Source of the DNA: Pseudomonadota bacterium | GTDB lineage: Bacteria; Pseudomonadota; Alphaproteobacteria; Rhizobiales; Beijerinckiaceae | DNA: 39,997 bases | Assembly: GCA_021777915.1 (NCBI GenBank) | Contig: JAJYCZ010000008.1 | Location: 1-39,997, forward strand | Reading direction: 5' to 3' | Shown here: positions 3,274-13,349 of the stretch, piece by piece | Layout of the letters: each line of letters opens with the position of its first letter | Numbering within the stretch: position 1 is the first letter of the stretch | Program-made: the position numbers and the translations under genes | Notes under the pieces: model-generated | What the model saw: the letters and a program-made list of their open reading frames with translations, nothing else | Database searches by the model: none | What the model was told of the DNA's origin: nothing

Positions 3274-3407
3274 GGGAATGCTCCGGTTCTTCTTGGCGTG
3301 TGGCCGCTGGGCCAAACGCCACCGTATGGTAAAAGCTCGCGCGCGCTGTTCCTGCCGGTCGCAACGGCAAAAACGACCCCGGCGCGAGGCCGAAAATCGC
3401 GAGCGGC

Positions 3408-3472: not shown

Positions 3473-3501
3473 TTGCATTCCGGTCAAGAACAAAGTAAGA
3501 A
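3473..3501 (+). promoter_or_regulatory. Probable promoter of the small ORF/methyltransferase unit
   Basis: TTGCAT (3473-3478), a 17-base spacer and TAAGAA (3496-3501) form a plausible promoter about 35 bases before the ATG at 3533. The LexA box overlaps its spacer and -10, the geometry expected for repression by blocking RNA polymerase. The -10 match is weak, so an alternative -10 slightly downstream is possible. Confidence 0.45.
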
Positions 3502-3502
3502 C
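3488..3502 (+). promoter_or_regulatory. LexA (SOS) box, alphaproteobacterial type
   Basis: The sequence GAAC-AAAGTAA-GAAC is an exact match to the direct-repeat LexA motif GTTC-N7-GTTC (read here as GAAC-N7-GAAC) known from Alphaproteobacteria. It lies 30 bases upstream of the ATG of the 86-aa ORF and overlaps the candidate promoter. It is an intergenic site in the right place, so a chance match is possible but unlikely. It implies SOS induction of the downstream genes. Confidence 0.75.
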
Positions 3503-3532
3503 AATATTGACGATGCTTTTTCGGAGGCGCCC

Positions 3533-3793
3533 ATGGCGCGAAGCCTGTCTCTCGCTCTTCATTCCGGCGGCGCGCGGCCGCTGCCCGCCGACTGGCGCGA
3601 TCTGCTCGACCTGCTTTCCGAGGACCTGCGCGAGATTTACGAAGAACGCGCCGCGCTGATCGAATATGACGGCGGCGAAAAGCGCGCCACCGCCGAGCGC
3701 CGCGCCTTCGAATGCGTGATGGATCGGGCGGGAAGCGCTTTCTGGGGACGGTTGGTCGCGGGCGCTGGCGAAAAGCGCGCCGCTGTGACCTGA
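3533..3793 (+). CDS. Small acidic helical protein of unknown function, SOS-boxed
   Basis: I do not recognise a named family. The start is the ATG at 3533, with a strong GGAGG six bases upstream, giving 86 aa; the ORF-track start further up is unlikely because it runs through promoter and LexA box. The protein is mostly helical and charged, with a central DWRDLLDLLSEDLREIYEER stretch followed by AALIEYDGGEKRATAERRAF. From memory the ERAA..EYDGG..R..AE..AF pattern also occurs in phage and plasmid proteins; this was not checked. No membrane segment or signal peptide is visible. The methyltransferase starts 33 bases downstream on the same strand, so they probably form one unit under the LexA box. 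Function unknown. Confidence 0.7.
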   Translation: MARSLSLALHSGGARPLPADWRDLLDLLSEDLREIYEERAALIEYDGGEKRATAERRAFECVMDRAGSAFWGRLVAGAGEKRAAVT

Positions 3794-3826
3794 TGGAAGC
3801 GTGATTCGATCCGGCCTTCGCGCGCA

Positions 3827-5035
3827 ATGCCCCAAAATCTGACTTTCTATGAATTCTTCGCCGGAGGCGGCATGGCCCGCCTTGGGCTTGGAAATGAGTG
3901 GACCTGTCTGTTCGCCAATGACATCGACGCCGACAAGGCCGCGGCCTATCGCGCCAATTGGGGCGGCGCGGAATTTGCCGAAGGCGACCTTGCCGCCATT
4001 GAGGCGCGCGCGATTCCCGGCCGGGCCGATCTCGCCTGGGCGTCCTTTCCGTGTCAGGACCTGTCGCTCGCCGGCGGCGGCAAGGGCATGGGGGCGGCCG
4101 ACGACGCGGTGAAAACCCGCAGCGGCGCCTTCTGGCTGTTCCATGAAAAAATGCGGGCGCTTGGCGCCGAAGGCCGCGGCCCGCGCGCCATCGTGCTGGA
4201 AAATGTGGCCGGCGTGCTCAGCTCCCATGGCAAGCGCGATTTCTGCGCGCTGGTAGAAGCTCTTGACGGCCTTGGCTACCGCGTCGGCGCGCTCACGCTC
4301 GACGCGCGCTGGTTCACCCCGCAGTCCCGCCCGCGCGTCTTTTTCGTCGCCGTGCGGAAATCCCTGTCTGGCCCATTGGCCCATGGGGATGACGGCCTGA
4401 TCGCGGGGACTCCTCATCCGCTCTGGACCTCCGCCTCGCTGCGCGCCGCTCATGGCGCCCTTCCGAACGGTTTGGCCGAAAACTGGATCTGGTGGCGCCT
4501 GCCGGAGCCGGCGCGCCGCAACGCCGATCTCGCCGATCTGCTCGAAGACGCGCCCGCCGAGGCGCCGTGGCGCGCGCCCGCCGCGACCGAGCGCCTGCTG
4601 GCGCTGATGGCGCCATCCCATCGCCGGAAAATCGAGGAGATTCAGGAAAGCGGCGCGCGTGTCGTCGGCGCCGTCTATCGCCGCACCCGCGTCGACGAAG
4701 GCGGCGCGAAACGGCAAAGGGCGGAAGTTCGCTTCGACGGTCTCGCCGGCTGCCTGCGCACTCCGCGTGGCGGCAGTTCGCGCCAGACGATTCTGGAAGT
4801 CCATCAAGACAGCATCCGCGCCCGCCTGCTCTCGCCGCGCGAGGCCGCGCGGCTCATGGGCTTGCCCGACTCTTATATGCTGCCCCCGAACCCCGGCGCG
4901 GCATACGAATTATGTGGCGACGGGCTATGCGTCCCGGTCGTCCGCCATCTCGCCCAACATCTCCTTCAGCCGCTGCTGCGGCCTGAAGCGTCCCGTCTGC
5001 GCCCGCCGGAGGAAAGACCCTTCGCGGCTGCGTAG
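3827..5035 (+). CDS. Orphan DNA (cytosine-5-)-methyltransferase
   Basis: The 402-aa protein has the ordered motifs of C5-cytosine DNA methyltransferases: motif I FYEFFAGGGMARLGL (residues 7-21), catalytic motif IV SFPCQDLSLAGGG with the nucleophile Cys76, motif VI ENVAG (125-129), motif VIII QSRPR (166-170), a variable target-recognition stretch of about residues 180-300, and C-terminal motifs IX-X (LLSPREAARLMGLPDSY and CGDGLCVPVV). It should transfer a methyl group from S-adenosylmethionine to a specific cytosine. No restriction endonuclease, vsr nuclease or specificity subunit lies beside it, so it looks like an orphan enzyme. It follows the LexA-boxed small ORF, suggesting damage-linked expression. 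The target sequence cannot be read from the protein. Confidence 0.93.
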   Translation: MPQNLTFYEFFAGGGMARLGLGNEWTCLFANDIDADKAAAYRANWGGAEFAEGDLAAIEARAIPGRADLAWASFPCQDLSLAGGGKGMGAADDAVKTRSGAFWLFHEKMRALGAEGRGPRAIVLENVAGVLSSHGKRDFCALVEALDGLGYRVGALTLDARWFTPQSRPRVFFVAVRKSLSGPLAHGDDGLIAGTPHPLWTSASLRAAHGALPNGLAENWIWWRLPEPARRNADLADLLEDAPAEAPWRAPAATERLLALMAPSHRRKIEEIQESGARVVGAVYRRTRVDEGGAKRQRAEVRFDGLAGCLRTPRGGSSRQTILEVHQDSIRARLLSPREAARLMGLPDSYMLPPNPGAAYELCGDGLCVPVVRHLAQHLLQPLLRPEASRLRPPEERPFAAA

Positions 5036-11618: not shown

Positions 11619-13349
11619 TTGTCCGTCGAACCGCGTCGCGAGTCCGAATTCGCTTGCGTGCGATCGCTTCGCGATCGCACGATCTTGCGCGCGCTCGCCA
11701 CATCGGGTCTGGGCGTCTTGGCCCTGGGCGTCTTGGCCCTGGGCGTCTTGGCCCTGGGCGTCTTGGCTCTGGCGGCTCCGGCCCTCGCCCAGGACGCGGG
11801 CCTGCGCGCCTCGGACGACGCCGGCCTCGCTGGCGCGGCTCCGGCGATGGCGTCCGGCGCGGACGCGCCGCCCGCGCCGGAAGGGGCGCCAGCGCCCATG
11901 ACGCGCCTGTCCGACGCCATCGATCCCGACGCCACCGCCCTGTCGCCAGAAGCCGCCGCCGCCAATTACGGCAAGCCGCGGCCCTTCAAGCCGAAGCCCA
12001 AATCCAACCGCAAAAGCCCGGCTCATCCGCTGCCGGACCTCGCGCCCTATCCGACCTCCGCCGAGGCGCGGCGCGCCCGCCGGCTGGGCCTGCGCGCCGA
12101 CGCGGTCGATCCCGCCCTTCTGGTTCCGTCTCCGATGGCCGCCTTGCCCGCGACCGTTTCCGCCAAGCCAAAGCCCAAGCTCGACCTCGATCCCTTCGCG
12201 CCTCCAGGACTGGACGCCGGGCCTTTGCGCGCCCATGCCTATTCCGAAACCGATTTTGGATATAATTCCAATCCTTTGGAGGCCTCGCCGGGAGCAAGCT
12301 TTCTGCGCGGATCGAGCTTCCTGCGGGAGGAGGTCGGTCTGTCCGCCGTCTCCGACTGGTCGAGCCACTCCTTCACCGGCGACATGCGGCTCGGCTATGA
12401 CGATTTTTTACAGCTTCCCGCCGCCAACGCCCCGGACGGCGCCGGCAAGTTTCTCGCGCGCATCGACGTCGCGCGCGACACCAAGGTCAATGTTGACGGC
12501 AATTACGGGCTTTCGACGCAGTTTCAGACCTCGCCCAACCTGTACAACAATGGCGCCTCGACCCAGCTCGCCTCGCGGCCGCTCATCGCGACCTATGGCG
12601 GCGGCCTGGGGCTGAGCCAGGATTTCAACCGGCTCGAACTGACCCTGCGCGGCGCCTATGAGCGCACTTACTGGGCCGACGCTCATTTCGCCGACGGCTC
12701 GACGCAAGCTCTGTCGCAGGATTCCTACGATGATTATGGCGCGACCCTCAAGGCGGCCTATGCGCTGACGCCCGAGGTCCAGCCCTTCCTCGCCGGCGGC
12801 GTGGACCAGCGCATTCACGACGCGACCGTGGCCACCGATGGCTATGAACGCAATTCGGTTGGCGCCTCGATCGTCGGCGGCTCGACTTTCCTGTTCAGCC
12901 AGTTGCTGACCGGCTCGGCCTCGGCCGGCTATGAAGACCGCCATTACCAGGACCCGCGCCTCACCGATCTGCGCGGCCCGATCTACGACCTTTCGCTGAT
13001 CTGGACGCCGACGCCGCTGACCAAGGTGACTTTGCGCGGCCAGGGTTCGATGGACGAAGCCCTCCTCTACAACGCCTCGGGCGTACTGAACCGCAGCTTC
13101 AGCCTTGAGGTCGCCCACGCCCTGCGGCGCGATCTCACGGTGACGGGGACCGCCGGGGTGCTCTATTCAACTTATCCTGGCAACCCGCTGGTCCAAACCT
13201 ACTACACCGCCGGACTGAAGGCGGAATATCATCTCACCCGCCACATCGTGGCCACGGCCGCCTATGCGCTCCAGAAGATGGCCGCCAATCAGACCGGGTC
13301 GGATTTCACCGCCAATATCATGACCGTCGGCCTGAAGCTCCAGGAATAG
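11619..13349 (+). CDS. Outer-membrane beta-barrel protein (BBP2-like)
   Basis: The 576-aa ORF starts at a TTG (11619); an in-frame GTG at 11658 would give a more compact signal peptide (MRSLRDRTILRALATSG) and may be the true start. The hydrophobic core is built from a repeated GVLAL pentapeptide and ends in a cleavage-like APALAQ. A Pro/Ala-rich periplasmic stretch of about 170 residues follows. The rest has alternating aromatic/polar beta strands, for example YSETDFGYNSNPLEASPGAS and, at the C-terminus, TAAYALQKMAANQTGSDFTA. This resembles the putative beta-barrel porin 2 family; cargo or role is unknown. It converges with galU, with four bases between the stops. Confidence 0.8.
   Translation: MSVEPRRESEFACVRSLRDRTILRALATSGLGVLALGVLALGVLALGVLALAAPALAQDAGLRASDDAGLAGAAPAMASGADAPPAPEGAPAPMTRLSDAIDPDATALSPEAAAANYGKPRPFKPKPKSNRKSPAHPLPDLAPYPTSAEARRARRLGLRADAVDPALLVPSPMAALPATVSAKPKPKLDLDPFAPPGLDAGPLRAHAYSETDFGYNSNPLEASPGASFLRGSSFLREEVGLSAVSDWSSHSFTGDMRLGYDDFLQLPAANAPDGAGKFLARIDVARDTKVNVDGNYGLSTQFQTSPNLYNNGASTQLASRPLIATYGGGLGLSQDFNRLELTLRGAYERTYWADAHFADGSTQALSQDSYDDYGATLKAAYALTPEVQPFLAGGVDQRIHDATVATDGYERNSVGASIVGGSTFLFSQLLTGSASAGYEDRHYQDPRLTDLRGPIYDLSLIWTPTPLTKVTLRGQGSMDEALLYNASGVLNRSFSLEVAHALRRDLTVTGTAGVLYSTYPGNPLVQTYYTAGLKAEYHLTRHIVATAAYALQKMAANQTGSDFTANIMTVGLKLQE
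11657..11681. other. Perfect 11-bp stem hairpin at the alternative GTG start
   Basis: CGTGCGATCGC (11657-11667) and GCGATCGCACG (11671-11681) pair perfectly around a TTC loop. The stem contains the alternative GTG start codon at 11658 and two GCGATCGC octamers. It lies within the translated 5' region of the beta-barrel gene. In mRNA it would be a very stable hairpin able to affect initiation. Confidence 0.7.
11711..11770 (+). repeat. Four 15-bp tandem repeats inside a signal peptide
   Basis: The unit GGGCGTCTTGGCCCT occurs four times head to tail (11711-11725, 11726-11740, 11741-11755 and 11756-11770); only the last differs, at one base (C to T). Because 15 is a multiple of three, each unit encodes Gly-Val-Leu-Ala-Leu, so copy-number change lengthens or shortens the signal peptide's hydrophobic core without a frameshift. 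Near-identity of the units suggests recent expansion. Confidence 0.9.

Follow-up and report, generated by a model that had tools for sequence, protein, structure and literature searches.

The window examined here is a stretch of 39,997 nucleotides from a draft Beijerinckiaceae genome of 3.61 Mb in 275 contigs, whose nearest named relatives, judged by the locus described below, are Rhodoblastus sp. On the plus strand, a LexA operator (SOS box) with the sequence GAACAAAGTAAGAAC occupies positions 3488-3502 and is the only perfect GAAC-N7-GAAC match in the window. It overlaps a putative sigma-70 promoter at 3473-3501, recognized by eye from a -35 element TTGCAT (3473-3478), a 17-nt spacer and a -10-like TAAGAA (3496-3501), and is followed on the same strand by the ribosome-binding site GGAGGCG (3523-3529), which by eye is conserved before the small open reading frame in the promoter alignment. 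Next come the gene for an 86-aa SOS small protein with a predicted helical hairpin core (3533-3793, with its ATG at 3533) and an intact gene for a C5-cytosine DNA methyltransferase (MTase) of 402 aa (3827-5035), both on the plus strand. Divergent rpmH-rnpA-yidC genes lie upstream, and a DUF6894-like ORF, apaG and argE lie downstream of the MTase. Elsewhere in the window, a 15-bp tandem repeat of 4.3 copies at 11709-11772 encodes GVLAL repeats at the start of a predicted outer-membrane protein, in a stretch that resembles a signal peptide.

The box motif by itself proves nothing, because about one chance match (mean 0.96) is expected in any 40-kb window. The chance of a perfect box at one given 60-bp promoter is about 0.0012, and the genome as a whole contains 99 perfect matches versus 59 for a reversed control. 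Conservation rules out a chance occurrence. Each of the 11 genomes of the genus carries a perfect box, 45-48 bp ahead of the small ORF (45 bp in the window's genome), and in an anchored alignment of these genomes all eight GAAC positions and five of the seven core positions are invariant, as are five of 35 positions in the left flank and one of 22 in the right. The five conserved left-flank bases all fall within TTGnnTT, which fits a -35 element and is the sole conserved stretch outside the box. A consensus promoter scanner did not report a sigma-70 promoter at 3473-3501; the arrangement in which its -10 element overlaps the LexA box is one that we infer. The genome encodes lexA on contig C66, with a box of its own (GAACCAAGCGCGAAC) about 100 bp upstream, and the same AT-rich-core box type precedes imuA, uvrA/ssb, radA, rmuC, splB-like and uvrD-like genes, all recognized by eye. 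When a matrix was trained on seven further SOS genes from the same genome, the candidate box ranked eighth among the 99 genomic perfect matches. The locus thus displays the features expected of an alphaproteobacterial LexA regulon, namely a perfect direct-repeat operator (GAAC-N7-GAAC / GTTC-N7-GTTC) conserved in relatives, in a genome with lexA and boxed SOS genes. The box, its conservation and the occurrence of the same box type at SOS genes of this genome make it very likely that LexA controls the promoter. The first-pass annotation had placed a perfect GAAC-N7-GAAC box at this promoter, a reading that is confirmed, and had named as adverse an outcome in which the genes are conserved and the box is not; the box is kept in every one of the 11 genomes.

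The box, small gene and MTase gene occur in the same order throughout this Rhodoblastus-like genus of purple bacteria (11/11), and the linkage of the two genes is kept while the upstream neighbours vary. The proposed unit of a LexA-boxed small protein and an intact C5 MTase is accordingly upheld at the level of the genus. The spacing between the two genes ranges from 33 to 66 bp, and no plus-strand terminator-like site was found between them; for these two reasons, the MTase is probably carried on the same transcript as the small gene. The start of the MTase is without an obvious Shine-Dalgarno sequence, and its translation may be coupled or may begin elsewhere. In the window this gap, at 3794-3826, includes a TGATTCG-like stretch that is common to most of the genus. 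The idea that box, small ORF and MTase might co-occur across the Rhizobiales fared differently: it holds for the genus, but neither the box nor the small ORF accompanies MTase orthologues outside it. A general Rhizobiales unit is rejected, since among 298 genomes of the family clear homologues of the small gene were found only in the genus and in two further genomes, G150 and G211.

The small protein has a pI of 5.4 and 15 D/E versus 13 K/R residues, so that its earlier description as acidic is correct only in a weak sense, while its length of 86 aa and its lack of a recognized family both stand: it matches none of the Pfam, NCBIfam or PADLOC families. A dN/dS of 0.19-0.34 indicates purifying selection and, together with the homologues in other genera, rules out a spurious reading frame. 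The sequence follows the pattern DWR...EERAALIEYDGGEKR.TAERRAFE, with an invariant core of DWR...EERAA.I..DG.E.R.TAERRAFE. A predicted structure built from six sequences comprises helices at residues 30-47 and 51-84 arranged as a helical hairpin, with a moderate mean pLDDT of 68, and a fold search of the PDB with this model returned nothing below E=3. In other bacterial families the hits extend only over a short stretch at the EYDGG motif. An origin from phages or plasmids is rejected, since the phage collection gave hits to the small gene only at E>0.6, the plasmids gave none, and viral contigs share only the motif. The RHH ORF that precedes the MTase in restriction-modification (R-M) modules was also considered as an ancestor of the small gene and is not homologous by eye. 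The extended motif, EERAAIxEYDGG, recurs in otherwise different proteins beside primase/helicase-like genes as well as in viral contigs; at five loci (L110, L111, L113, L114 and L115) the motif-bearing protein is encoded directly after a predicted primase/helicase-like gene. The motif is widespread, no library searched gives it a family name, and the genes beside it may suggest a link to replication.

Three genomes of two other genera (G150, G684 and G211) carry the small gene unlinked to the MTase, in each case with its own perfect LexA box (GAACATAACAAGAAC, GAACATAACAGGAAC and GAACACAATAAGAAC), an independent recurrence that also speaks for a genuine box in the window. Because it is LexA-boxed even where it stands apart from the MTase, the small gene is more likely an independent SOS gene than one that encodes a subunit dedicated to the MTase. 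The MTase is present elsewhere in all three of these genomes, a co-occurrence that is only suggestive because the MTase is already found in 14 of 31 genomes of one genus having the unlinked small gene.

A full-length match to PF00145 (E=1.8e-42) and, by eye, motifs I, IV (PCQ), VI (ENV), VIII, IX and X, the last of which reads GDG, identify the MTase as a C5-cytosine DNA methyltransferase, and it is the only PF00145 protein in the window's genome. Of the PADLOC models DruM and MTase_II, to which it is akin, DruM (PDLC00028) provides its best full-length profile match (E=1.7e-147). However, no other Druantia gene was recognized among the neighbouring ORFs, which were read by eye and look like housekeeping genes, and the MTase is therefore not filed as Druantia. 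Its match to the E. coli-type subfamily model PRK10458 falls far under the cut-off. The TRD is collinear with that of R-M relatives at 44-51% identity; an Eco29kI-type GIY-YIG partner was considered as a guide to the recognition sequence and set aside, as none of the solved GIY-YIG restriction enzymes gave a match. In the loop after motif IV, at window positions 4076-4129 (MTase residues ~84-101), there is a 4-residue insert (..GAADDAVKTRSG..) that is present in all 11 MTases of the genus and absent from every other aligned relative.

Close relatives of the MTase were found in 8 of 25 other genera of the family sampled. In most of these other carriers vsr, which encodes the Vsr mismatch endonuclease, lies just downstream of the MTase gene or one gene further on, and it likewise follows the Caulobacterales relatives with one gene between. 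Four loci of one sampled genus, g53 (L257, L260, L264 and L269), have no vsr in the stretch fetched; the association of MTase and vsr outside the genus is strong, not universal. Extra MTase copies in genomes G027 and G026 and copies on plasmids have a restriction enzyme of the PADLOC REase_II, DUF4928 or GIY-YIG type beside them, frequently an RHH ORF too, and in some cases vsr. In G027, the RHH ORF of two near-identical operons of RHH ORF, MTase, restriction enzyme and GIY-YIG genes is preceded by a perfect, AT-rich box of LexA type, GAACATATATAGAAC (L239:1865-1879 on the plus strand; L238, box at 3320 on the minus strand), and in G026 (L237) a box lies at a similar place in the opposite orientation. 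MTases of this subfamily may have come under SOS control on more than one occasion.

Within the genus, vsr is unlinked to the MTase and yet is retained in 11 of 11 genomes. The genus vsr genes (11 rows from 10 genomes in the tree) form one clade (support 100/99) that is nested among MTase-linked Vsr. The MTase tree agrees with this, its genus clade being supported at 100/100. The adjacency typical of a dcm-vsr pair is thus missing while a Vsr of the same clade is retained, and the MTase and vsr of the genus can be called at most a split pair. Neighbours of vsr in the genus loci read are fumarate hydratase, polyhydroxyalkanoate-system or another housekeeping gene. None of the vsr loci of the genus has a perfect LexA box, and LexA control of vsr is rejected on that basis. 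In G001, G006 and G007 there are second vsr copies, and these are found within ~11 kb of an additional, unrelated MTase. The two vsr genes of the window's genome (G000) are very similar to one another and each lies near a contig end (L140 on C269 and L141 on C199); the gene may truly be duplicated, or the pair may stem from assembly or from mixed strains. The vsr of G009 (L248) contains an in-frame TAG shortly before its GCFWH motif and is either a pseudogene or the product of a sequencing error; because of this stop, Vsr need not be functional everywhere.

These comparisons qualify the earlier description of an orphan MTase with no nuclease nearby. No restriction gene adjoins the MTase among the neighbouring ORFs read by eye, and the enzyme is solitary with respect to its neighbourhood, the genome-wide search having covered PF00145 and Vsr. 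The absence of a nuclease is accurate for the window, where the DUF6894-like ORF, apaG and argE follow, but not for the genome, with its two vsr genes. The term orphan likewise fits the lack of an adjacent restriction gene but not the wider family, in which most relatives are followed by vsr, some accompany a restriction enzyme, and a same-clade vsr persists elsewhere in the genus.

Several known systems resemble this arrangement in part. In E. coli a C5 MTase is likewise associated with a very-short-patch repair endonuclease, but dcm and vsr form one operon there, whereas here the pair is split and the MTase lies with an SOS promoter. The Type II R-M-Vsr modules with DUF4928 or GIY-YIG enzymes, including those on plasmids NZ_CP026703.1 and NZ_CP022368.1, contain MTases of the same subfamily (~55% identity over 94-98%) and in some cases an adjacent vsr; they differ in having a restriction gene, and in several an RHH ORF, and in lacking the SOS small gene. 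The ScmA/VsrA system of Caulobacter crescentus also combines a solitary alphaproteobacterial C5 MTase, an unlinked Vsr-like gene and a link to SOS, a comparison in which the kinship of ScmA to the present MTase has no part. According to the available text of that study, loss of ScmA leads to an SOS response strictly dependent on the unlinked Vsr-like protein, vsrA is itself damage-induced, and the role of solitary cytosine methyltransferases in alphaproteobacteria is an open question (PMC12907096). That text describes no LexA box for scmA, whereas here it is the MTase, together with the small gene, that lies behind a LexA box, and the unlinked vsr loci are without a perfect one. In the open-access papers searched, a damage-induced cytosine MTase was found only within a prophage (PMC3978071), and a LexA-controlled chromosomal 5mC MTase was not found.

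On balance we lean, a little beyond even confidence, toward a split MTase-Vsr pair in which the MTase is under LexA control in a two-gene operon and, raised by damage, limits Vsr-dependent breaks. The ancestor of the MTase would have belonged to an MTase-Vsr pair with kinship to R-M-Vsr modules; in this genus the MTase would have become placed downstream of the small gene's SOS promoter, with vsr at another location. Both the split and the capture by the SOS promoter probably predate the radiation of the genus, because vsr is unlinked in all 11 genomes and the vsr and MTase genes each form a strongly supported genus clade. LexA bound over the spacer and -10 element would block the promoter and keep expression of the unit low, and damage, through LexA cleavage, would raise the MTase. 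The enzyme could then re-methylate sites at which repair synthesis and lesion bypass have left no methylation, and Vsr-dependent breaks at unmethylated or mismatched sites would become less likely. The outcome would be a negative-feedback loop in which breaks induce SOS, SOS raises the MTase, and more MTase means fewer breaks. From the sequence comparisons we infer LexA binding, co-transcription, induction, a partnership with Vsr in trans and a protective purpose. That purpose is probably the restoration of 5mC after damage and the limiting of Vsr or restriction breaks; by analogy with Caulobacter, MTase induction at the time of damage would keep new DNA methylated and so limit breaks by Vsr.

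Against the split-pair explanation stand the MTase start without an obvious Shine-Dalgarno sequence, the absence of a perfect LexA box at the vsr loci of the genus, the in-frame stop in the G009 vsr and the LexA box that the small gene has where it stands alone. Given this last point, the operator may serve the small gene, and the MTase may be carried along as a passenger or transcribed from a different promoter. In the fullest form of this alternative, the small protein alone is the functional SOS product, for example a checkpoint or replication factor acting at the time of damage, and the MTase came to lie downstream by chance rearrangement and is expressed mostly from a weak promoter of its own. 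The boxed small genes of G150, G684 and G211, with no adjoining MTase, and the resemblance of the ERAAIxEYDGG motif to proteins beside primase/helicase genes and in viral contigs speak for it. It nevertheless has to contend with a linkage that survives in 11 of 11 genomes while the upstream neighbours change and, more weakly given how common the MTase is in one of the genera, with the presence of the MTase in all three genomes with the unlinked gene; we regard it as rather unlikely. If the small protein acted directly on the MTase, by inhibiting it, by setting its specificity or by recruiting it to damaged DNA, the pair would be one enzyme complex made only under SOS. This would account for the strict linkage in the genus, the genus-specific insert after motif IV and the co-occurrence of the two genes even when unlinked. 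But MTase relatives occur without the small protein and the two genes are far apart in three genomes, and such a complex appears improbable to a marked degree.

A different role for the MTase itself is suggested by its close relatives in modules of RHH ORF, MTase, restriction enzyme and, in some, Vsr on plasmids and chromosomes, and by the collinear and similar TRDs they share. The solitary enzyme could guard against addiction, shielding the chromosome from related R-M elements with DUF4928 or GIY-YIG restriction enzymes, whose cutting would trigger SOS and induce the MTase. There is precedent in that restriction attack during post-segregational killing induces SOS and that Dcm attenuates killing by EcoRII (PMC3874152), which by analogy favours such a guard. 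However, the window yielded no restriction element of this kind, the retained vsr would be left unexplained, and we consider this role unlikely.

The split-pair explanation extends, more tentatively, to a larger proposal that is possible although we would put it below an even chance: an SOS-controlled chromosomal 5mC MTase and a new SOS small-protein family would close a feedback loop with the unlinked Vsr, in which low methylation leads to Vsr breaks, breaks to SOS, and SOS to restored methylation. The analysis defines a new LexA-boxed small-protein family, and a genus with a solitary MTase behind an invariant LexA operator, and a likely Vsr partner elsewhere, offers a direct and inexpensive test system. 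The questions it opens are whether 5mC is raised by DNA damage and whether this protects from Vsr or restriction breaks. In sum, these observations suggest that cells of this genus boost DNA methylation when their DNA is damaged and, if the proposed loop is true, the dosage of DNA methylation would be set by the DNA-damage response.
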